This document shows positions 2,119 to 23,356 of a stretch of DNA of 23,356 nucleotides, in pieces. Position numbers and translations under genes: made by a program. The stretch is from a virus. The DNA is taken from positions 1 to 23,356 of IMG/VR virus record IMGVR_UViG_3300046314_000579, one strand, 5' to 3'. Below the pieces are notes generated by a model, which worked only from the letters and a program-made list of their open reading frames with translations, was not told the DNA's origin and made no database searches. The first letter of the stretch is position 1; each line of letters opens with the position of its first letter.

Positions 2119-3603
2119 ATGTCTATCAAAATCGTCGGTAATGCCTCAGGCAATGTAGCCGAAGTAACATCAGCAAACGCCGTAAAGGTTCACCTCGAAA
2201 GTGACGCCTATACAGACCCAATGCTTGTCGGTTCAATCCGTGCAATGGGTGAGGTCGATGGGGGATTCATCACAAATACACCTATCCTTCGTCCTCTCGA
2301 ACTCGACGCTGACTATCGTGCTCGTTTCTCTCAAGACTGTCTATATGATGAAGAGGTATTCAACTACCTTGCACAGAACACAGGTAAACACAACCATCTC
2401 GCAACTACAATGGCGTCTACATGGACGGCAGGTCAGTTCACTACAAACTCTGCTTCTATCACAACAACAACAACAGGTGTACAACTCTCTACTTATGCGT
2501 TCTTCCCTTGTACAGGGACTACAACTCTCTCTCTCGATGCAGAGATAGCCTTCTCGGAACAACCAAAGACAAATACATTCGTAGAATGGGGAGTAGGACA
2601 GGCAGGTACTCAGCTCATCGCTCCAACAGATGGTGTATTCTTCCGCCTCAATTCAGCAGGTCTACAAGGTATATGTTCGTACAACGGTACAGAAACTAGC
2701 ACTGGCGTATTCCCACTCTCAGGAGGAACTGGAACTTGGGTATACACAGATAACAAGCGCTACCAGTATATCGTATACCAGTCAATGGTCGAGGCTATGT
2801 TCTGGGTGAATGATGGAACAGGTGCAGTATTGCTCGGTCGTATACCTCTCCCTACCGCTCAGCCTCGTATGAGTATGGGTGCAGGAGGACAAGTGTTCTT
2901 CAAGCATCGTATCGTAGGTGGTGCGGCGTCAGGTGCACTCCAAGCATATCTCGGTGCATACAATGTCCGTCAGGGTGGTGTCAATTTTACATCTACTCCG
3001 TCAACATCAGGTTCTCGAACTCTCGGTGCATATCAGGGTCTATCAGGTGGAACAATGGGAAGTCTCGCTCTCTACCCAAATAGTGCGAATCCTACTGCTG
3101 CAGTCCCTACCAATACAACAGCGGCTCTCGGCTCAGGTCTCGGTGGTCAGTTCTGGGAAACTGCTACTCTCGCAGTCAATACAGACGGAGTCATCCAGAG
3201 TTACCAAGTCCCAGTCGCATCAGTCAATATCCCTGGACGAAGACTCGTAATTCGAGGTGTTGGACTAATGAGTTACATACAAACAGTTATCGCAGGATGA
3301 CCATTCGTAGCCCAGTGGTCACTCGCATTCGGACATACAGCAGTGTCTCTCGCAACAGCAGAGGCGGCAACAACCAAGGCTCCTCGCCGACAAGCTCTAC
3401 CAGCATTCACACAAGTAGTCACTGCAGCACAAGCCGTCAGTACAATGGTAGCTCAGCCAGGTGGTTCATTTATTGATTTCGGTGATGCTCCTATATTCGT
3501 TAATCCAGGTGAGTTCTTCCAACTCGTGACGAAACATGTTGGAACAGTCGCTACAGCAGGAACTATCGCCCATGTCGTCAGCTTCGTATATGGTTGGGAA
3601 TAA
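2119..3603 (+). CDS. Probable virion structural protein, beta-rich
   Basis: Reads as 494 residues with a single TGA-Gly, at 3298, which joins two frames (2119-3300 and the rest to a TAA at 3601). The N-terminus (MSIKIVGNASGNVAEV) resembles the opening of many phage surface or decoration proteins. The middle (residues about 100-260) alternates short strands and Gly/Thr turns, like a concanavalin/laminin-G type fold. The C-terminus (residues about 395-494) is Ala/Val rich. The gene is 10 bases after the fibre gene and so is probably co-transcribed from P1. Its sparing use of UGA suggests it is made in quantity. I do not recognise the family; a tail or head surface role is inferred from context. 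Confidence 0.65.
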
Positions 3604-5449: not shown

Positions 5450-7119
5450 TGTCTTACAGAACAGCAAAACCAATATCCCCTGAACATGCGTTTGCATGAG
5501 GTTTTGTCGATAACTCTCAGAATCTCTTTCTTAAAGACCAGTATAGCCCATATCTTCGTAATTGTCGCCTAGAGTGACAGTCAATCGTAATCCGTCCGTG
5601 ACACTCACTATTCGCTACTCTCACCACAGGGAGCTATCCAAAGGGCATAGGGAGCTATCTTAGGGCAGTATCTGCAAATGATGTACTCGTAGTTCGCCAT
5701 AATAAGAGTGGTACGGAAAAGCTCGTCACTATAACAGAGGCAGGAGTAGTAACTAATATAACAACAGGAGCGAATATTGCGAGTGATAACCGAATGTTCT
5801 TTCAGAATGTAGGTGATGTTATCTATTGTATGAATTGATCAGATAACTTTGGGAAACTCTCAGGAACTACATATACAGTTCCAAGTACAGGAATAGCGAG
5901 CTTTGCACCTGCATTTTCAGTGGTATTTAGTGGTTCACATTGGGCAAGTGGATGGGCAACAAATAGCAACAAGGTATATAAGAGTGTCGCAGATAACTAT
6001 GAAGACTTTGCAAGCACAGGATCAGACTCTTTCACTTTTGGAGAACAGATAGTCGGACTCTCAGCTAATCTCCAGTCATTATTCTATTTTACGAAGAATA
6101 CAATAAGCGTTACAGGAGTCGGAGATATTACAGACACAGCAGGAACACTGACATTTAATACTCGTGCACTGAATGTGAAGGAAGGTGCAGTCAATAACGC
6201 ATCTATAGTAGAGGTAGGAGATGCAACATATTTTCTCTCTAGCTCTAACGCTATATCTAAAATAGCTCGTGGTACAAGTATCAATGGATTCGAAGTAATC
6301 GACCTATCATCTCGTAAGTATGCGGGTATCGATGTTATCATGGGATCATTAGATAAAAACCAAGAGTCATCTTTTGGAGTCTACTTGCCAGATGTTGGGA
6401 TCATAAAATGGTATCTAAAGTCTCTCGGTGCAAGTTTTAACGATATATGTATCGTGTATGACACAATAAAAGATGCTTTTCTCGTAGACTCAGGAAAACC
6501 TTTCTTTGACTCGGTGTACTTCAAGGGATACACATACGCAGTATCTATGCTAGAGCCTAAAGTATATCAAGATGAGGTAAACCAAGATGACGAAGATGCA
6601 GGAATAGAGTTTGAATACTGGACAAAAGAGTTCTATCTATCCGATCCAACATATAAGAAGATACTATGGGAATCTCGTACACTCCTCGATATAAATGAAC
6701 TCGTAGAGATGACACAAGAGATATGGATAGATGGATGACTCGTAGATACTAAAATTATCTATGGAAATACTAAATTTATTTCGTATACTTGGTGAAACGC
6801 TCCATGAAACTGGTGAGATGTAACCGATACATGGACAACATATTGAAGGTATATCCCATGAGCGTATCTTCTCAATACATGATGAATTGGAGTAGATCCA
6901 ATAGGATGACACTCAATAGGACTATCTAACGAATCCATCTCATGAAATGATGAATACCAAGAGATCACTATTCTCAGAACAAAGTGAAATCTCAACGTAA
7001 AATGAAAAAAAATACAATTCAGGTTCTACAACTCGTCACTTGCGGGTAAAGTACGACTCAAAAACCTCGCTATGCTTGTCGAAGTATTGCCAGGTTTATC
7101 TAATAATCTTACGATCTAA
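5449..7119 (+). CDS. Tail hub / tail-stabilisation protein (P22 gp10 or tail-tubular-B like)
   Basis: Reads as 556 residues with about 16 TGA-Gly codons. The start is the ATG overlapping the previous stop (TAATG), which implies coupled translation. The N-terminal two-thirds is a beta-propeller-like chain of short repeats (VFSGSHWASGWATNSNKVY, then SLFYFTKNTISVTG), as in gp10-type hub proteins that open with a 'LRNCRLE.QSIVIRPG' type segment. The C-terminus QFRFYNSSLAGKVRLKNL (residues 523-540) is the usual final beta-sandwich of this group. Between 6736 and 7006, 12 of about 16 glycines are TGA, the densest UGA stretch in the window. It should assemble below the adaptor as the short tail tube or needle collar. 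Confidence 0.6.
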
Positions 7120-14496: not shown

Positions 14497-16101
14497 ATGG
14501 AACTCAAACAACGTGTAGAACTCCTTGCTAAAGCTAAGAAAGAGCCTAAGTTACAGGCAATAGAGATAGAGATGTGCAAAAGAGATCCAATATACTTTTT
14601 CAACACCTATCTTAATACTGATAAGAACAAGACTCTTTTTAGTGACGATACACCTGATGTACTTCCTTTTATCCTTTTTCCTTTTCAGGAAGAGTATGTA
14701 ACAGAGGTATGGAGAAGTATAACACAGGCAAATATTCCAGTAGAGGAAAGAGATATTGACGAACTAACAAATGTATTTGTAGAGAAATCCCGCCAAATGG
14801 GCTTGAGTTGGCTTACTTGTGGTCTTTTTCTGTATGGATTCATATTCCATCACCATAAGTACACTATAATCTCTCGAACTGCTGACGAGGTAGACAAGCT
14901 CGGAGATATGGACTCTATGTTCGAGAAAATTCGCTTTATGATACGCAACTTGCCAACATGGATGCTTCCTAAGTGATTTTCTCGTGAGATGAGTAAGGAT
15001 AGGACAAATGCGTACATGAATATCAGTGATCCGAACACACAAGCAAGTATCACAGGGAAAACCGCAAATCCTGACGCTGGACGTGGTGGAACTCGAAATG
15101 CTATCTTTATGGATGAGATGGCTTTTATGCAACACGCAAGTGCTATAAATAAGGCTGCAACCTCGAATACCTCTTGTGTTATCTATAACAGCACACCAAA
15201 TGGCGAAGGTAATGAGTTCTACAGAATGCGTAAGCTCACTATGGAAAGACGAACGGCAGACTGAAAGATCCTCAAGCCTGAGATCAAGTGACTCCGCTAT
15301 CACTGGACAGAACATCCAATGTATGATCAGAACTGGTACGAGAATAAGATTAAAGGAAAGAGTAAAGAGACCATAGCACAGGAGTACGAAATCGACTACA
15401 ACACCGCTATCGTATGACGTGTATACGAGTGATTCCCTAAAGATCCTATGGTACTCGTCTATGATCCGAATAAGCCTCTCTATATAGCAATGGACAATAG
15501 TCACGGAGGAAAAGATCCGTTCGCTATTATTGTTGCACAGCCTGATGGTGCATACTGGAATATAATTGACTACCTAGAAATGAATGCTACTCCTGAAAAT
15601 ATGGCATCATTTTTGACTTGCAATCCAAAGTGAATACTAGAAACGCATCATCATAACTTCCTCGAACGATATAGAAACTATAACTGGCAGAGAGCAACAT
15701 TTATAAGTGATCCGTATGATACAAAATCTGCAATGGGGAATAGTACGATTCTCGAAGACTTCCGAAAATTAGGGATAAATCTCATGCTTCCACAAGAACG
15801 AGACAAAATAGAACAAATACTAACTACTCGAACAAACATATATCGTATTAGATATAATGATAACTGTCTCGATTTTGCATCTGCTATAATGAATGCTCGC
15901 TATCCTGAAAGAAGTGAAACAAGCCAGTCTACAAGTGTACAGAATAAGCCGATTCATGATTGGACGAGCCATGCTAGAACTGCACTAGAATATCTATTCC
16001 AGTATACAAAAGAAAACCCTCTCATAAATAAGGAAAGAGTTGTACAAGATACTCGCCCAACTCGTAACTATTTGACTGGGGAACTCGTGTATCCTAAATA
16101 G
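14497..16101 (+). CDS. terL: Terminase large subunit (packaging ATPase-nuclease)
   Basis: Reads as 534 residues with six TGA-Gly codons. ATPase motifs: deviant Walker A KSRQMGLSW (97-105), Walker B AIFMDEM with D206-E207, and C-motif NSTPNG (231-236). Nuclease motifs: D333 in IAMDNSHGG, D405 in FISDPYDT, and HDWTSHARTALEYL (487-500). TGA falls at positions where the family has Gly, for example residue 160 (LPK-G-F) and the I-V-G-R-V-Y-E-G-F stretch. It cuts concatemers and pumps DNA into the procapsid through the portal. It starts 14 bases after the previous gene behind a C-rich leader (AATCCCCCTTCCCCCT), and its TAG stop overlaps the end of a convergent minus-strand gene by 8 bases. The portal gene follows only after the minus cassette. 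Confidence 0.95.
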
Positions 16102-16345
16102 GAAGTTTTCTATTTACTCGTGTTCAATCTTTCTGAATCTCTACGTAATCTATAAACCTCTTCGCAGGAATAAAGGTACGTTGTCATGTATATTTTCAAT
16201 CTCAATTAAAATATAAATAATCATATCAAAGAAGCTCATCTATTATATAAATAAATTGTTGGTCATCATAACAATTTATATCGTATTTTTTATATATACG
16301 CATTACTAGCTTTCTTGTAATGTATAGAAGTAGTTTATCAATCAT
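16094..16345 (-). CDS. Small unknown protein, third gene of minus-strand cassette
   Basis: Reading TGA as Gly gives an 83-residue protein from ATG at 16345 to TAG at 16094-16096, with five TGA codons. It begins MIDKLLLYITRKLVMRIYKK and has a Tyr/Asp/Gly-rich middle (YFNGDGKYTGQRTF) and a basic end. It is invisible in the standard code. It starts 12 bases after the stop of the gene before it, and its 3' end overlaps the terminase end by 8 bases tail-to-tail. The family is not recognised. Base content is far more AT-rich than the virion genes (9-10 G+C in the 60-base lines at 16201 and 16321), which suggests later acquisition. Confidence 0.7.
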
Positions 16346-16539: not shown

Positions 16540-16797
16540 TTATTTAATTCAAACCAATAGATATAATACAGTAAATCAACATTTCTCACAAAAATCTATA
16601 TTATACGTAGGCTTATTTAATTCATTGTAAACATTTTCATTGTACTGTTTTATTCGTTTTTCTAAATCTTGTCATTGTGGCGTATTTCATGCAAATGGGA
16701 ATAAAGCACTTATAATAATATGCTCATAATCCTTTTTTTCTCCAATTTTTTCATATTTGAGTTTTCAGCAACATTGGCACTTATAGACTTTTTGCAT
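16540..16797 (-). CDS. Small zinc-ribbon protein, first gene of minus-strand cassette
   Basis: ATG at 16797 opens 85 residues ending in TAA at 16540-16542. Two CxxCG knuckles lie at residues 7-11 (CQCCG) and 70-74 (CEKCG), so a zinc ribbon with a helical insertion (about residues 40-62) is likely. The Gly after each second Cys is encoded by TGA, which is strong local support for UGA = Gly. Zinc ribbons of this size often bind nucleic acid or act as protein adaptors; no specific role can be given. It is the promoter-proximal gene of the cassette, with a leader of about 75-80 bases. A competing frame at 16710-16931 needs a GTG start lying in P3 and is less convincing. Confidence 0.75.
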
Positions 16798-16884: not shown

Positions 16885-16912
16885 ATTATATTCATATCTT
16901 CTCGTATTGCAA
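16885..16912 (-). promoter_or_regulatory. Minus-strand promoter for the three-gene cassette
   Basis: On the minus strand TTGCAA (16912-16907) and TATAAT (16890-16885) are separated by 16 bases. This differs from the P1-P4 consensus in its -35 box and spacer and has no C-tract after it, so the cassette may follow the host's ordinary control and not the phage program. It is back to back with P3. Confidence 0.5.
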
Positions 16913-16918
16913 ATAATT

Positions 16919-16945
16919 TTGATTTTCTCACAATTCGTATATAAT
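16919..16945 (+). promoter_or_regulatory. Promoter P3 (TTGATT-N15-TATAAT)
   Basis: TTGATT at 16919-16924, a 15-base spacer and TATAAT at 16940-16945, with CCCCC at 16959-16963 exactly 14 bases after the -10 box. Unlike P1 and P2 the C-tract has no downstream G-tract to pair with before the start codon at 16984. It drives the portal gene. Confidence 0.8.
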
Positions 16946-16983
16946 AAAAACAAGTAATCCCCCGACTCTCTAACTATCACACT

Positions 16984-18807
16984 ATGCTAAAAGTCGAGGC
17001 ATTCGAACAAAAGAAAAAGTATCCAAATTATGTTCCAACAAAAGATGAGATGACAAAAGTAGGATATGTTGCTACTCGTTTTACTGACATGAAAAATGCT
17101 CGTACTGTAGTAGATAAAGACTGGGATACATACCAGACTATGATCGATGCGGTATTTGCTCCATATCCTGACGGACGTAGCTCTTCTACTGTTCCTCTCT
17201 CTTCTGCTATGATCGAGCTATATGTAGCCGAAGCACTCAAGATCCCTACTGATTTTCAATTCCGTAGTGAAACAAGTGAACACGCAACCAACGCTAAGGC
17301 ACTAGAGTACGTATGGAAGTATGACTGGAGAACAAAAAAGAGAAAGAAGGTAATGACTGATGAGGAATATATCTGTGGTGCTTTTGGTACTTCTATTAAA
17401 TATACAGGATTTGAGAGTTCTATCTCAAAACAAAGTGATTATACTATCTGAGAAGATCTCAAGCCAGTTTGGAAAGAGACTGAATTTAAGGATGAAGAAA
17501 TAATCGTGAAGAATATAGATATTCGAGACTTTTATATCGACAATACTGTAAAGGATTCTATCGATGATGCTAGTGACTGTATACTTATCCAGTGGATGAG
17601 TTATGAGAAGTTCCAAGAGCTAAAATCAAACACATTCTATAAAAATGTAGATAAAGTAGCTCCTCGCAATTGGTCTATGGAAGACAAGCCTTTTTCTACT
17701 ATAGAGGAGGAAATAAAAACAGGAGAATATGTACGCCTCACTCATTATTGGAATGTAGAAAAGGACGCATATATGGTAATCGCTAACGAGTCTATGATAG
17801 TACGAGAGCATCCTATGATCTCTACTATGAATGGTCGCAAAGCACTTCCTTTTACTATCCGTGTACTCGGAAAGAAGAACTACTCTATATATGGTCGTGG
17901 ACTCTGTGAGGGGCTTATGATGTTCAATAGTGAAGTCAATAACCTCCGTGAAATACTCATGGATGCTATAAAGAGAAGCAATATGCAGACTCTTGCTATA
18001 GGTAATGGACTGAGTTTCAACGGACGTTCTTTTTCTTATGATAATGAGATTATAACCTTCGATGGAAACCTTGCTAATAACTTTCAACAGCTATCAGGAA
18101 ACCCACCAAATCAAGCTATATTTAGCTATATGACTCAGCTCTATAAGGATATTGCTATCTATATCGGTATAGACATACAGAACATAATCGGACAACCACA
18201 ACAGACAGCATTCCAAACAGAGGTACAGCGTGAAGCAAGCCAAAAACGTGTCAACGTATGGCTGACGAACAGAGACCTCGCTAACGAGCGATTCGCTGAT
18301 CTCTACAAAGACCTCTTGCAAAAATACTTCCCACGAAAAAACGCAGAGTGACTCTATCCAACAGTCGAGATCGAAGGGGAACAGATGGTAAACTGAAAGT
18401 TCCGAAAGAAAAAGTGAAAGTCTATATTCGAGGTAACCCCTGAAATACTCCGTGGAGATATAAGTATAGATGTATTCACGAACACAACAGCGCCAACAAT
18501 AAATGCAGTAGATAGACAGCAGAAGCTCGATCTTCTCAATGCAGTATGAGGAATAGCAAATGGGTATGCTATGGCGAAACAATCAGGAGTCGACATAGAA
18601 ACTATCCTCCCTCTCAAAAAGACTCTCCGTGATCTCGCTAGTGACTACAACCTAGAAGTCGAAAGCAACACAGATCAAGAAGACGTACAGGAGGCTAAAA
18701 TGAAGCTGATGAATGATCTCAAGGCAAAAGCAGGATGACTTACTCCTATGACTGAACTAGTACCACCAACAGAACAACCCCCTACACAATGAATTTTACC
18801 ACAATAG
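16984..18807 (+). CDS. Portal protein (podovirus/P22-like)
   Basis: Reads as 607 residues with seven TGA-Gly codons, ending in TAG. The N-terminal part has the usual helical portal start followed by a beta domain (residues about 170-300). The central stem region contains NNLREILMDAIKRSNMQTLA (from about residue 319) and a FDGN loop. The segment TAFQTEVQREASQKRVN at 408-424 is typical of portal proteins, where it forms the helix before the wing/crown. The C-terminus is acidic and Gln/Pro rich (crown or barrel tail). Twelve copies should form the DNA channel contacted by the terminase and the adaptor. It is the first gene after P3 and overlaps the next gene by 19 bases. Confidence 0.85.
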
Positions 18808-19070
18808 AAGACAACGAAATCAGGAAAGGAGAAATAATCCTTTCCTGAGATGAGGTCGCTGAAATGGTCGCCATAAAGACTATTCTTTTTAAGTTTCTAA
18901 AGAAGTCTAAGTTATCTTTTCAAATCTCTCTCGGTATGTGAAATCACCGATGAAAAGAAAGTGAAGTGTATGCAAAAATAGAAGTAATGGACGAACTCAT
19001 CCAGTCGATAGACTCGATGGAAGAATCACTCAATACCTATACAAAAAATATGAATAGTGAGAAAAAATAA
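18789..19070 (+). CDS. Small unknown protein overlapping the portal end
   Basis: ATG at 18789 opens 93 residues to TAA at 19068-19070, with three TGA-Gly codons. It shares 19 bases with the portal gene in another frame. The product (start MNFTTIEDNEIRKGEIIL) is mostly helical and charged, with a basic Lys/Phe patch near residue 35 and a C-terminal Asp/Glu/Ser helix that could form a coiled coil. A frame this long, tightly coupled to the portal, is likely real, but no family is recognised. An assembly helper or portal-bound small protein is one guess from position only. Promoter P4 begins four bases after its stop. Confidence 0.65.
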
Positions 19071-19074
19071 ATAT

Positions 19075-19101
19075 TTGATTTTCCAATAATATCTGTATAC
19101 T
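19075..19101 (+). promoter_or_regulatory. Promoter P4 (TTGATT-N15-TATACT)
   Basis: TTGATT at 19075-19080, a 15-base spacer and TATACT at 19096-19101. The CCCCC tract is also present (19123-19127) but 22 bases after the -10 box, 8 more than at P1-P3. It drives the scaffold-capsid block through a long structured leader. Confidence 0.75.
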
Positions 19102-19107
19102 AGAATT

Positions 19108-19225
19108 GTTCCTTTAACATTTCCCCCATTATTGCTTGCTTTTTGTGAGTTGTGGTCGGGGGATCATAGCTCGCAGAAAGCAGACAGTAATGTTTGCTTT
19201 TTTACTTTTATCACCCCTTACCTAT
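19108..19225 (+). ncRNA. Structured 5' leader with two mutually exclusive folds
   Basis: The predicted leader is about 118 bases. Fold A: the 13-base arm 19137-19149 pairs with 19170-19182 (11 Watson-Crick pairs and two G-U). Its loop carries GGGGG (19158-19162), which can pair with CCCCC (19123-19127) upstream, giving a pseudoknot. Fold B: 19177-19185 pairs with 19192-19200 and is followed by T residues, forming a terminator. The arms share 19177-19182, so A and B cannot coexist. This is the layout of an attenuator or riboswitch, placed before the capsid assembly genes. The ligand or trigger is unknown; no known riboswitch class was recognised. Confidence 0.5.
19177..19203 (+). terminator. 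Conditional terminator in the P4 leader
   Basis: AAAGCAGAC (19177-19185) pairs with GTTTGCTTT (19192-19200) with one G-U and a 6-base loop, followed by more T (to 19203). It would stop transcription before the scaffold gene unless its 5' arm is held by the upstream stem. Confidence 0.55.
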
Positions 19226-19870
19226 ATGGAAGACAACGTGAATGGAGTACCAACAGAGGCTCCGAAAACGGATAACCCTCCTGAAAATCCTGAACTTGCA
19301 AAGCGTCACGCTGAACAAATGGCAGGTTCTATGGCTGAGGTCGCAAGACTTCGTGAAATCGCTGTAGATAGTGTCGCCAAAGCATCTGAAAAAGATGCAA
19401 GTGCATTTTTAGAGGTTCACTCTAAAGACCCAAAGCTTGCAAACGAGGTAGCTAAAAAACTCGGTTATTCCAGTGCTGATGAAGTGCTTAATCAAATCAA
19501 TAAGAAACCTGAAAAGGCAGAAGATGACTTTGAAACTAAGTACGCTCAAAAGCGTTCTGAAGAAAAACATGAGGAAGCTATCACAAAGGCTCAAAAGATT
19601 CTTGGAAAACTCCCTGAAGATCTCAGAGAAGAAGCGCAAGCATACTTCGATGATATAACAGAAGGAAAGAGACTTGATGAAGATAAGGCTCAAAAATTTG
19701 CAGAAATGGCAACTCTTTATGTGAATAAAGACAACCTTCGCGCTGGACTTCTCGATGACTCCCTTGCTATGCTTGGAAGTACATGAGTAGGAAAGTCGAA
19801 GAAAGTAACCGAAAAGGAACCACAATATGTAGTTCGTGACGGTAAAATGATCTTACTCTCTAATAATTAA
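19226..19870 (+). CDS. Capsid scaffolding protein (candidate)
   Basis: Reads as 214 residues with one TGA-Gly near the C-terminus (about 19784), ending in TAA. The start chosen is ATG at 19226 (MEDNVNGV), because the open frame upstream lies in the structured leader. It is highly charged, Ala/Glu/Lys rich and almost all helix, with a Pro-rich start (TDNPPENPELAKRH) and a basic C-terminus (GKSKKV, VVRDGK) that could contact the coat protein. Size, composition and position between portal and coat genes are those of a scaffolding protein. It acts inside the procapsid and leaves or is degraded later. No protease motif is seen. Confidence 0.65.
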
Positions 19871-19875
19871 ACTAT

Positions 19876-20343
19876 ATGGCTAAAATGGAACCAACGCCTG
19901 AACAGGCAACTCCTAATGTGGATTTAACATCTGTACTAGAAAGACTCGACTCACTTGAAGCAGAGAATAAACAACTCAAAGCACAAGTGAATCCAGAAAA
20001 TAAGTTTGCGAAAGCTAAGGATAAGTATCAGTGACCTTGGAACTATAGCTATAAGCTATGGGGAGATCTCCCTGTATTATCGTATAAGAGTATCAAAAAG
20101 GACAAGACAAAAGACTTTACCTATAAGAATCACCTCGGTGTTCTTGTGAATAATCATTTTCTCGACCTTACTCTTGCTGATGATAGTAAAATCGAAGTAG
20201 ATATGCTTGAATTTAACCTGAATTGTAAACAATCAGATAAGCTCCCTGCGGAGCAGATCTTCGATGGTGTAACAGTAACATGATACAAGTTCAATGTCAA
20301 ACCTTACGGAGAATTTATTGTATCAAAATCCCTTATCAACTAA
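19876..20343 (+). CDS. Unknown capsid-module protein
   Basis: Reads as 155 residues with two TGA-Gly codons, ending in TAA. Residues about 13-38 form a short coiled coil (VLERLDSLEAENKQLKAQ), followed by a mixed domain (FAKAKDKYQGPWNYSYKLWG) and beta strands to the end. It starts five bases after the scaffold candidate. Its neighbours suggest a head-assembly or virion role, but the family is not recognised. Confidence 0.65.
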
Positions 20344-20353
20344 CTCACTTACT

Positions 20354-20710
20354 ATGTCTTATATCTGAGAAAAAGAAATCCAGACTATAGAGGGTACTAA
20401 AGTAACTTTTGTAGATGGTACAGAAAAAGTCTTCACTCCAAAGCAAATAGAATATGTTGTTACTGATGAAATGAAAGATGCAACACAGTTCCATGATCTC
20501 GTAACTTTTAATATTGCCGAGGAACTCCTATGAGTCCTTAAAACGCATAATATGAGAAAATGAGACCTTGATACTGTACTTAACCTTATCGTATCATCAT
20601 TCAATAATAAGTTTCTTATCGCTATTGGTAAAAAATTTGGTACTTTTGAAGAAGGGAAGCATGCTTCTTACTTCGAAGAAAATATCACTATGTCGGATTT
20701 ATTTAACTAA
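20354..20710 (+). CDS. Unknown small capsid-module protein
   Basis: Reads as 118 residues with three TGA-Gly codons, ending in TAA. A short beta hairpin at the N-terminus (IQTIEGTKVTFVDGTEKVF) is followed by helices with a hydrophobic face (LDTVLNLIVSSFNNKFLIAI) and an acidic C-terminal tail. It starts ten bases after the previous gene and ends twelve before the candidate decoration gene. The function is unknown. Confidence 0.65.
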
Positions 20711-20722
20711 CTTTTTACTCCT

Positions 20723-21211
20723 ATGGGAAAAGCTATCACGGCGGTAAACTCGCCAAACAAGACTAGCAACTTCTACCCTGCAGATGACAAATGGGAAATG
20801 ATTATGTTTCCTATTAAGGCTTCAACTGCTATGGAAGAAGGAACTCTTCTTTCTCCTGAGATCGTCACAAATGACGTAACAGGATACCTCACTAAGATGG
20901 GGGTCGAAAATGTTGTCGGTTCTGATTTTATTGGAATCCTCGCTGAACCTATCGTTGCAACTGACTCTGACTATGCTACAGCTGGAAAGCTCAAGGGTGT
21001 ATGGATTCCTAAGTCTATCAACGCCTCTGCATACTTCACTGTTGGTGCTGGTACATTCACTGCTTCCGATGTATTCCGAACTGTCGAGGCTCACTCAGAT
21101 TCTAAGTCTCTCGCTGTAGATACAAAGGGTAAGGGTGCACGTATCGTAGAATTTATCTCTTCCACTCGTGGACGATGTACATTCTCACTTCCTCAGACTG
21201 AAACCGCTTAA
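20723..21211 (+). CDS. Candidate head decoration protein
   Basis: A 162-residue frame with no TGA codon, from ATG at 20723 to TAA. It is beta-rich with a compact middle (PIKASTAMEEGTLLSPEIV, then GILAEPIVATDSD) and ends RGRCTFSLPQTETA. The order small beta protein then coat protein, 19 bases apart, is that of decoration or cement proteins. The complete absence of TGA at about 13 Gly positions fits high expression. No specific family signature was identified, so a different head role is possible. Confidence 0.5.
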   Translation: MGKAITAVNSPNKTSNFYPADDKWEMIMFPIKASTAMEEGTLLSPEIVTNDVTGYLTKMGVENVVGSDFIGILAEPIVATDSDYATAGKLKGVWIPKSINASAYFTVGAGTFTASDVFRTVEAHSDSKSLAVDTKGKGARIVEFISSTRGRCTFSLPQTETA

Positions 21212-21230
21212 TTTTTAACACTACTCAAAT

Positions 21231-22229
21231 ATGGCTATTCAAGTAAGCTCATATGAGCTGTCACAGATGACCGATCTCGTAGATCGCAGTTTTCTTGATG
21301 GACTCAAAACATTGCCTATGGTAATGAAAAATTCTGGAGTTGTTATTTTGGATACAATGCCAAAGAATTCTGGAGACTCTAAGCTTTTCGCTGAACGAGT
21401 CACAACTGACCAATACGCCTCTGTTCGTGATGAAGGTGCTGTAGCTGATGCTGGAGTTGTTCAGTACGGATATGAGAAGGTTGCTCAGGTATACACGATT
21501 GCTAAGACTATCGGTATCACTAAGCGTATGCGTGTAGCTGGTAAGGATCGCGCTATTCTTGACGAGATTACAAACCTCTCTGAAGTTTGTCCTAATACTC
21601 AGGAGCTCGACCTCTCTCACCGCCTCACTTTTGCATGGTCTACTTCATACAATTATAAGGGAACAACTCGTGATCTTACAACTGGTGACAACAAGGCTCT
21701 TATTGCAAATGATCATACCCTCACTGGTTCTGCTACTACTTACTCTAATCAGGTAACTGGTAACCCTGCATTCTCTAAGGGTGCACTCGAAATTGCTGAA
21801 AAGTCATTCGTAGAAGGATCATTCGACAATCTCGGTGTAAAAATCTCTGTAACTCCTTCAGTTCTCGTAACTACTGATGACCCAAATACAGTAAATGAGG
21901 TTCGCCAGCTTCTCAACGCTACTGCAGATGTAAACTCTGCTAACTCTGGTACGTCTAACGTATACAAGTCTAAGTACAAGCATGTTGCTAATCCACGTAT
22001 TGCTACTGACTCAAACGGAGGTGTTGATGCTACTAAGGCAAAATACTGGTTCCTCGCTTCTGAGCGTGCTTCTGACTTCTACATGTGTGAACTCGAAACT
22101 CCATATACAGAACTCATCAAGAGCAACGATTCAAGTGAAAACTGGAATTATCTTGCAGCTGCTACTTACCTTATCTCTATCGTAACTGGACGTTGGGTTC
22201 GCGGATCAAAGGGTGATGGCTCAGTTTAA
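21231..22229 (+). CDS. Major capsid protein
   Basis: A 332-residue frame with no TGA codon and all 22 Gly as GGN, the most conventional codon use in the window. Size, lack of low complexity and placement after portal, scaffold and decoration candidates fit an HK97-fold coat protein. The early helix (SQMTDLVDRSFLDGLKTL), the E-loop-like segment with RVTTDQYASVRDEG, the basic helix (IGITKRMRVAGKDRAILDE) and the C-terminal NYLAAATYLISIVTGRWVRG resemble Mu-type or related coat proteins. Function is inferred from context and fold pattern. It is expressed from P4. Confidence 0.75.
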   Translation: MAIQVSSYELSQMTDLVDRSFLDGLKTLPMVMKNSGVVILDTMPKNSGDSKLFAERVTTDQYASVRDEGAVADAGVVQYGYEKVAQVYTIAKTIGITKRMRVAGKDRAILDEITNLSEVCPNTQELDLSHRLTFAWSTSYNYKGTTRDLTTGDNKALIANDHTLTGSATTYSNQVTGNPAFSKGALEIAEKSFVEGSFDNLGVKISVTPSVLVTTDDPNTVNEVRQLLNATADVNSANSGTSNVYKSKYKHVANPRIATDSNGGVDATKAKYWFLASERASDFYMCELETPYTELIKSNDSSENWNYLAAATYLISIVTGRWVRGSKGDGSV

Positions 22230-22247
22230 TATCTAATCTCTCAACTT

Positions 22248-22658
22248 ATGGCTAACCAGACATTTGTAAACAACATGGGTACAACCTATGTACAGAGAGA
22301 TGTAGTATCATCTACTATCACAACTTCGGATGTAAACATTTTCGAGACAATCGGAAATGGGGTACTTATCGAAAGTGTGACAGTAACTACTGATGCTACA
22401 GGTCTAGCAGGAAGTACCGCTCTTGTCCTAAAGGCAAACGGCGTTACTTTCTTCCAGACTGCTGTTTCAGGACTCGGAGCTAACGCAGTAAAGGACATTA
22501 AGAATGCCTCTGTTACTGGCTCTACAGTCACTGTTCCCGCTGGTACTAAGTATGTAACTGTCGCAGGTACTGTGGCAGTTGGTACTGGTGCTGGCAAGGC
22601 TTCAATTACTCTCGGAGTAAAGAAGCTCGATAGCAACTCTTCTGTAAATCCTCTCTAG
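22248..22658 (+). CDS. Small beta-rich virion protein
   Basis: A 136-residue frame with no TGA, ending in TAG, rich in Val/Thr/Gly/Ala and predicted to be a beta sandwich (segment VTVPAGTKYVTVAGTVAVG). It lies 18 bases after the coat gene and uses the same conservative codons, so it is probably made in quantity. It could be a second decoration protein or a head fibre. A strong hairpin begins just after its stop. Confidence 0.6.
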   Translation: MANQTFVNNMGTTYVQRDVVSSTITTSDVNIFETIGNGVLIESVTVTTDATGLAGSTALVLKANGVTFFQTAVSGLGANAVKDIKNASVTGSTVTVPAGTKYVTVAGTVAVGTGAGKASITLGVKKLDSNSSVNPL

Positions 22659-22659
22659 T

Positions 22660-22698
22660 AGGATTGCTCTATCTCTCTCGGGAGATAGGCACAATCTT
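22660..22698 (+). promoter_or_regulatory. Long intercistronic stem-loop
   Basis: AGGATTG (22660-22666) pairs with CAATCTT (22692-22698, one G-U), and CTATCTC (22669-22675) with GAGATAG (22682-22688), separated by a small internal loop. There is no T-run after it, so it is less likely a terminator than an RNA-processing or mRNA-stability site between two capsid-module genes. It would block an alternative upstream start (22664) of the next gene. Confidence 0.5.
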
Positions 22699-22714
22699 AT
22701 TAACCAACCTATCT

Positions 22715-23005
22715 ATGCAAACTATCGCACAAAACATCACAACTGGATCTGTAGCTGTCGGAACCTCTGCGGTTCAGGTATCGACAGAAACATCATCTAT
22801 AAAAGTCATAATCAAGGCGGCTCTCGCTAATACTGGAATCCTTTATATAGGTAAACTTGGAGTTACTGCAAACTCTGCACCTGCAACTGATGGTTATGAG
22901 CTGACAGCTGGTACATCTATCGAGATCGAAATAGGGAATCCTGCAATTCTCTATGTTATAGCAAGTGCTATCACTCAAAAAGCATTCTTTACTATTTTAA
23001 AATAA
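22715..23005 (+). CDS. Small unknown beta-rich virion protein
   Basis: A 96-residue protein from ATG at 22715 (start MQTIAQNITTGSVAVG) to TAA. An upstream TTG at 22664 would add residues encoded by the hairpin and is rejected. Strands such as VQVSTETSSIKVIIKA and ILYIGKLGVTA suggest a small beta-barrel or sandwich like phage head or tail surface proteins. There is no TGA, as in its neighbours. Confidence 0.65.
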   Translation: MQTIAQNITTGSVAVGTSAVQVSTETSSIKVIIKAALANTGILYIGKLGVTANSAPATDGYELTAGTSIEIEIGNPAILYVIASAITQKAFFTILK

Positions 23006-23011
23006 TCATAT

Positions 23012-23356
23012 ATGGCTACTGTATACCCACTCTTGCCGAATGATCCTATTAGTACAACGTATACAAATATAAATGATAGTATCAATAATCTAAACACTGA
23101 CAAGGAGGAAATAGCAAACAAATCCACCTCAGTCACTACAGACCAAGCTAGCAATACTAAATACCCTAGTGTAAAATCAGTATACGATTGGGCAACTACT
23201 ACTCTCTCAAAATACCTCGGTGATGCTGACTTCTACCAATACTCTATAGTCCGTACAGTCTCAGGAGGTAATCTCACAGTAGCTCTCAAGAACTACGAAG
23301 GCAATGACCCTACTCCCTCTGTGCCAGTTAAGATAATGATAGGAGTAGTAGTGAGG
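23012..23356 (+). CDS. Tail-fibre-like protein, 3' end outside window
   Basis: ATG at 23012 opens a frame to the end of the window (115 codons seen, no TGA). The N-terminal region has the fibre signature EIANKSTSVTTDQASNTKYP followed by SVKSVYDWATTTL, common in phage tail fibre and appendage proteins. It is the third fibre-like gene in the window and the last visible in the P4 group. Confidence 0.65.
   Translation, partial: MATVYPLLPNDPISTTYTNINDSINNLNTDKEEIANKSTSVTTDQASNTKYPSVKSVYDWATTTLSKYLGDADFYQYSIVRTVSGGNLTVALKNYEGNDPTPSVPVKIMIGVVVR

Follow-up and report, generated by a model that had tools for sequence, protein, structure and literature searches.

Stop-codon recoding is said, after Borges et al. 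2022 (cited in PMC10746230 and PMC13059738), to time the expression of late phage genes, the recoded codons reportedly lying in late structural and lytic genes. The phages considered here share with that system an uneven density of the recoded codon among their genes and depart from it in that the coat gene, itself a late gene, is emptied of UGA, whereas other virion genes keep theirs. Closest in kind are the code-25 phages of Gracilibacteria and Absconditabacteria, with their dense in-frame TGA (Liu et al. 2023, PMC10746230), which by the description in that paper are of the same kind as the phage analysed below; according to a passage there, genes dense in TGA might enjoy more efficient translation, whereas our coat data point the opposite way. 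More generally, Lucks et al. (2008, PMC2266997) describe, with GC3 accounted for, a stronger bias toward host-preferred codons in phage head and tail genes than in the rest of the phage's genes. The likeness is one of codon adaptation in structural genes, and the abstract of that paper mentions no reassigned stop. Unlike the situation described there, UGA-Gly is among the two most avoided codons in the code-25 phages, and the coat and decoration genes stand apart from the portal and ejection genes. Finally, the available texts on Blastocrithidia (PMC12153298) and a ciliate (PMC10553269) report that highly expressed genes make less use of reassigned stops, and propose a translational burden. 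Those are eukaryotic nuclear codes for which expression or protein abundance was measured; the present case concerns a bacterial UGA=Gly code and is replicated in diverged phages, with abundance only deduced from gene identity. Among the partial texts of the literature searched, we found no earlier report of such avoidance for UGA-Gly or for code-25 phages. What appears to be new is the avoidance of UGA-Gly in code-25 phage coats, while phage codon adaptation and the avoidance of reassigned stops in eukaryotes were known.

The window, by which we mean the whole stretch of DNA analysed, is the 23,356-base virus record IMGVR_UViG_3300046314_000579, a phage record in which TGA is read as glycine. 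The reassignment of UGA to sense in these phages is backed by coding density, which in the window is 0.97 with TGA as sense versus 0.67 otherwise, and by glycine alignment columns: among TGA codons facing a majority residue in other phages, 160 align to Gly and 14 to the runner-up Ser, and in the window alone 6 of 8 align to Gly. No tRNA genes were found in the window. Its terminase and portal (Table 1) were identified with PHROGs profiles. By its structure model (pLDDT 84.4; top PDB match a phage capsid, E 2.1e-11; HK97, E 5.6e-11), the 332-aa gene is an HK97-fold major capsid protein, here called the coat. The 162-aa gene is tentatively assigned as a decoration or capsid-stabilising protein, because the best PDB matches of its model (pLDDT 80.2), which are phage capsid chains, have E values of 1.1e-3 or weaker; they include the TW1 capsid stabilising protein. 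Among the named-phage terminase matches listed, the best is to Pseudoalteromonas phage TW1 (32%), the same phage to a chain of whose capsid entry the decoration candidate is matched. Against named phages the coat gave no match and the terminase matches are all below 60% identity; the portal found no match as a lone query. Between terminase and portal sit two small AT-rich (GC 0.26) minus-strand frames, 16094-16345 and 16540-16797, in which TGA accounts for 5/5 and 5/6 of the Gly codons; c75, a near-copy, has minus-strand frames at the same terminase-portal site.

Table 1. Features of the window and the share of TGA among their glycine codons
Feature	Position	Strand	TGA / Gly codons	Remarks
494-aa gene	2119..3603	+	1 / 57	GC 0.49
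Virion protein, 556 aa	5449..7119	+	16 / 54	12 of 16 Gly codons at 6736-7006 are TGA
Ejection-like protein, 895 aa	9321..12008	+	27 / 86	VanY-type domain
Ejection-like protein, 823 aa	12011..14482	+	42 / 85	
Terminase large subunit	14497..16101	+	6 / 23	comparison gene
Portal protein	16984..18807	+	7 / 31	comparison gene
Scaffold-like protein, 244 aa	19136..19870	+	1 / 12	by position
Decoration / capsid-stabilising protein candidate, 162 aa	20723..21211	+	0 / 13	
Major capsid protein (coat), 332 aa	21231..22229	+	0 / 22	HK97 fold model
Gene directly 3' of coat, 136 aa	22248..22658	+	0 / 15	
Small gene, 113 aa	22664..23005	+	0 / 9	longest frame
Gene extending past window end	23012..23356	+	0 / 5	

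The initial annotation had claimed from hand counts that the genes of the capsid block lack TGA in about 60 glycine codons. The recount bears this out: the block at 20723-23356 has none in 64, against 163/613 in all window genes (hypergeometric P 7e-10, post hoc). The longest TGA-free run comprises 67 Gly codons (20627-23342), as compared with a permutation maximum of 39 (n=5000), a test that takes into account how the region was picked. Another stretch free of TGA, 48 Gly codons long (2137-3295) and likewise above all 5000 permutations, lies in the 494-aa gene, in which a single TGA had been correctly reported. Across 23 genes, the heterogeneity of the TGA share reaches a chi of 106 versus a maximum of 60 in 20000 shuffles. 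The dozens of TGA codons noted for the two ejection-like genes are likewise present. As for the dense patch at 6736-7006, the count given for it was right, but the patch is only modestly unusual, since 67 of 5000 permutations reach at least 12 TGA in some 16 consecutive Gly codons.

Relatives were gathered through coat, terminase and alignment searches, and their code-25 status was called by coding density. The first set of 12 phages omits the near-copies c75 and L016, the duplicate L009 (of L008) and re-fetched stretches of the same contigs; L005 is without a coat gene, and L028 (GC 0.52, ambiguous code, coat frame 5/35) and L154 (code 11) fall outside the code-25 set. A later scan yielded seven new phages, six of them code-25, which served as an out-of-sample test, and the 18-phage comparison consists of these six and the first 12, all of one related family. 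With TGA/(TGA+GGN) counted per gene in these relatives, as the initial annotation had proposed, the TGA share of the coat is lower than that of its own terminase and that of its own portal in 18/18 code-25 phages with a coat gene. Pooled over the 18 phages, the counts are 45/443 for the coat, 237/529 for the terminase and 265/703 for the portal (MH OR 0.11 for coat versus terminase and 0.14 for coat versus portal). Measured against the remaining genes, the coats of the 12 phages have 32/295 TGA versus 2042/5232 (OR 0.14). All six out-of-sample phages repeat the depletion (13/148 versus 1108/1995 elsewhere, OR 0.07), most strongly L150, whose coat has 0/29 against 154/204 (~75%) elsewhere. When randomly distributed UGA or TGA-rich coats were sought in the relatives, the coats of L018 (6/22) and L030 (14/32) were found still to lie below the rest of their genomes. 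The median pairwise identity of the coats is 45%, with the closest pair at 94%. Avoidance of UGA in the coat is a rule of the family and not a quirk of the window genome. It holds in phages with CGA=Arg (coat 4/125 versus 559/2048) and in those with CGA=Trp (8/94 versus 726/1802). Since the latter matches the Absconditabacteria code, reported with CGA=Trp in the available text of PMC8629427, the depletion probably spans two host groups.

The decoration genes are depleted as well (25/182 TGA versus 2020/5013, OR 0.19; lower in 11 of 12 phages), with TGA-rich versions existing in L018 (7/15) and L030 (10/14). The gene right after the coat has an OR of 0.19-0.23 in the first set; homologues of the window's 136-aa version have 0/15 in c75 and 0/16 in L043, and the exceptions are L030 (27/35) and L008 (9/16). 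In the first set, with abundances judged from gene identity, the coat and decoration genes are depleted and the portal mildly so (OR 0.67), while the terminase (OR 0.83, n.s.) and the scaffold-like gene are not. The last has 62/166 TGA versus 1958/4847 across the family (OR 1.0) and, being expected to be abundant, counts against a pure abundance rule.

The coat's codon usage is distinctive beyond glycine. In the coats of the 12 phages, ATA, AGT, TTA, AGG, TTT, TAT and AAT are down while GGT, TCT, ACT, GCT, ATC, TTC, TAC and AAC are up, with ORs of 0.13 for ATA, 0.14 for TGA, 2.7 for GGT and 3.3 for both ATC and TTC. No comparable shift of a codon set was found in the terminase and portal controls, and the coats of 26 code-11 relatives have the same core pattern (ATA, GGT) without TGA. 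A shift of this kind is what selection for speed or accuracy of translation typically leaves behind, and within it UGA-Gly stands beside AUA as one of the worst codons. A coat-like codon score that ignores Gly predicts low TGA across 184 genes (0/5000 within-phage permutations) and is still predictive once the coat and decoration genes are removed (160 genes, 0/5000 permutations). The window genes with the highest scores are the coat, the decoration candidate, the 136-aa gene and, in fourth place, the 494-aa gene, which jointly have 1 TGA in 107 Gly codons. By its codon usage the 494-aa gene is a candidate for an abundant virion protein; no homologue of it was found among the phage relatives.

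We put at roughly 0.85 the probability that UGA-Gly is a poor codon which selection has cleared from the proteins made in the largest amounts, with abundance read from gene identity. The near-absence of UGA from the coat suggests that the reassigned codon is still costly to translate. UGA would need a separate host tRNA-Gly(UCA), which could be scarcer, slower or more error-prone than the GGN-reading tRNAs. Each capsid is built with coat and decoration subunits in the hundreds, whereas roughly a dozen portals and a few terminases suffice; at such numbers the burden of a poor codon would be heaviest in the coat. GGA would keep mutating to TGA in every gene, the change being tolerated in low-copy genes and removed in the coat. 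Accuracy may be a second component: were UGA sometimes misread, it would be expected to be shunned at conserved glycines, as it is, with no corresponding avoidance of AUA at conserved isoleucines. The proposal of the initial annotation, that abundant proteins are under selection against UGA, has strong support, the depletion being found in 18/18 phages, independent of composition and part of a codon-optimality signature.

The same annotation had considered that the capsid block might come from a genome with fewer UGA codons. A block captured from a standard-code or otherwise UGA-poor phage would have its UGA codons yet to gain, and related coats do occur in 26 standard-code phages, the aligned ones being about 35-43% identical to the window coat. 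In the coat tree, however, a branch (100/97) separates 13/13 code-25 coats from the other coats, and the branches among them are long. Moreover, between the window and c75 (coat 95% identical), the block has 13 GGN-GGN changes and one GGN-TGA change, versus 65 and 86 elsewhere (Fisher p 3.6e-4); with only the syntenic terminase-to-138aa genes of this pair as comparison, the latter figures are 18 and 13 (p 0.034). The UGA-free coat of L150, in a genome otherwise so rich in the codon, also speaks against capture; the other close pair, L015/L016, differs at too few places in the block to be informative. Because the code-25 coats are one clan, and GGN-GGN changes accumulate in the block while switches to TGA do not, acquisition is refuted for the period covered, and we consider it very improbable as the explanation. 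Equally improbable is an origin in base composition or strand bias, by which a GC-richer block would hold fewer TGA. The block genes have a GC of 0.40-0.45 versus 0.36-0.40 in the two ejection genes, and GC3 has some effect on the TGA share; yet the coat OR is 0.14 with or without GC4, T/(T+G), A4 and GC3 in a regression on 187 genes with phage effects and overdispersion allowed (p 9e-9; residual per-gene overdispersion about 2.6). This set includes the L010 coat, which the earlier tiled set lacks, and leaves out three overlapping frames. Furthermore, coat GC4 is below that of the median gene in 12/12 phages, and AT-richer fourfold sites should favour TGA; the comparison genes also share the coat's strand. 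Gly-rich repeats were separately rejected as a cause, the coat OR still being 0.15 when only isolated Gly are counted and Gly-rich genes omitted.

A release factor that still competes at UGA, causing premature termination, would purge the codon where drop-off costs most and yield the same gene ranking; avoidance at conserved glycines would also fit the cost of failed decoding. However, the base following TGA and GGA is nearly alike (A.37/.40, C.13/.14, G.32/.27, T.19/.20; p 0.011), so small a difference that it lends little support to such competition, the TGA share has no clear trend along genes, and AUA, which is read by no release factor, is equally avoided. The available text of PMC8629427 further reports that the two Gracilibacteria in which UGA is not reassigned possess RF2 but not the tRNA; this suggests to us, as a point unstated in that text, that RF2 was lost in reassigned hosts. 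Competition by a release factor is in our estimate quite unlikely; of the two mechanisms named in the initial annotation, a limiting tRNA-Gly(UCA) fits better, the cause of UGA's inferiority being one that we infer. Somewhat different in kind is the possibility that UGA density is tuned to set protein ratios within one late operon, low in the coat and high in ejection and fibre genes, in addition to the codon being purged where it is costly. One co-directional cluster indeed spans 0% to 50% TGA (genes with at least 20 Gly codons), and the gene family preceding the ejection genes is enriched in TGA (267/588, OR 1.35 versus the rest). Yet this enrichment is slight compared with the depletion, a high TGA share can arise without selection from AT mutation and Gly-rich repeats, and the scaffold-like gene does not fit; we regard tuning as unlikely. 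Timing of late genes by stop recoding was rejected, as the coat is emptied of UGA and a suppressor tRNA was found neither in the window nor in 8 contigs of 36-45 kb, which may be incomplete.

Under translational selection against UGA, the reason for the codon's poor quality can be approached through several hints from its placement, none of them decisive. Adjacent UGA-UGA pairs number 186 versus 222 expected, with 0/1000 permutations as low, while GGA-GGA pairs are not avoided and GGT-GGT is enriched; such avoidance is as would be expected for a slow codon. Conserved glycines are encoded by TGA in 94/489 cases versus 236/791 at variable ones (OR 0.53, p 1e-4), with an OR of 0.99 for ATA at conserved versus variable Ile, and this shunning of UGA is as would be expected for an error-prone codon. 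Most of this effect at conserved sites stems from the portal; inside the coat, conserved and variable glycines do not differ (11/116 versus 21/179). The following base, treated above, is a third hint of this sort. In proteomics of a BD1-5 bacterium, the available text of PMC4032931 gives, with filtering at its strictest, 40 peptides with Gly at UGA and one with Trp, so that misreading may be real but low. The 8 longest code-25 contigs, of 36-45 kb and perhaps incomplete, were examined and yielded no tRNA-Gly(UCA) gene; hence, the phages seem to depend on the host for its supply. Across viral contigs, a first DNA pattern for this tRNA gave 0 matches, and a second gave 49 viral stretches, 2 of them with a tRNA of anticodon tca, neither being code-25-like by coding density.

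A wider reading, which we offer tentatively and hold to be rather doubtful, is that UGA never became an equal glycine codon in code-25 bacteria. Compared with GGN it would be decoded at a lower rate and with more errors, perhaps by insertion of Trp, so that phages of two host groups would bar it from their coats even where it reaches ~75% elsewhere, and virion stoichiometry would be partly written as UGA density. In any case, an uncultured recoded lineage now lends itself to testing how good a codon a reassigned stop can become, and the UGA share offers a simple sequence marker of abundant proteins in code-25 phages. The coat data are also evidence against the suggestion, made in PMC10746230, that efficient translation may belong to the UGA-dense phage genes. 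The phage RSA-ATP1 carries its own tRNA-Gly(UCA) according to the available text of PMC13059738, and the prediction is that coat depletion will be weaker in such phages.

As regards the hosts, CGA aligns with Trp in L003, L006, L007 and L018 (4, 5, 4 and 1 columns, respectively) and mainly with Arg in the window, L002, L004, L010, L043, L136 and L148 (and c75). In the coat tree the CGA=Trp and CGA=Arg phages are not separated but form one family with related coats, and from this intermixing the phages seem to have crossed between hosts of different codes. A scan of genome contigs turned up just one locus, a code-25 phage contig of 43.7 kb (L050 / G001:C75, RXKB01000065.1) that is 83% identical to window positions 16885-23006 and is filed in a Dependentiae MAG. 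The EF-Tu and L2 families sought in that MAG gave 7 and 1 matches, none with an internal stop, and the contig is most likely misbinned there. The densest TGA in these phages is carried by Gly-rich (GGGG) proteins, as in L016:14677-16269 (129/158), L018:14775-15599 (80/97) and G001:C75:42228-43001 (49/90), which are perhaps tail adhesins; the one in L018 has up to 5 consecutive TGA codons.
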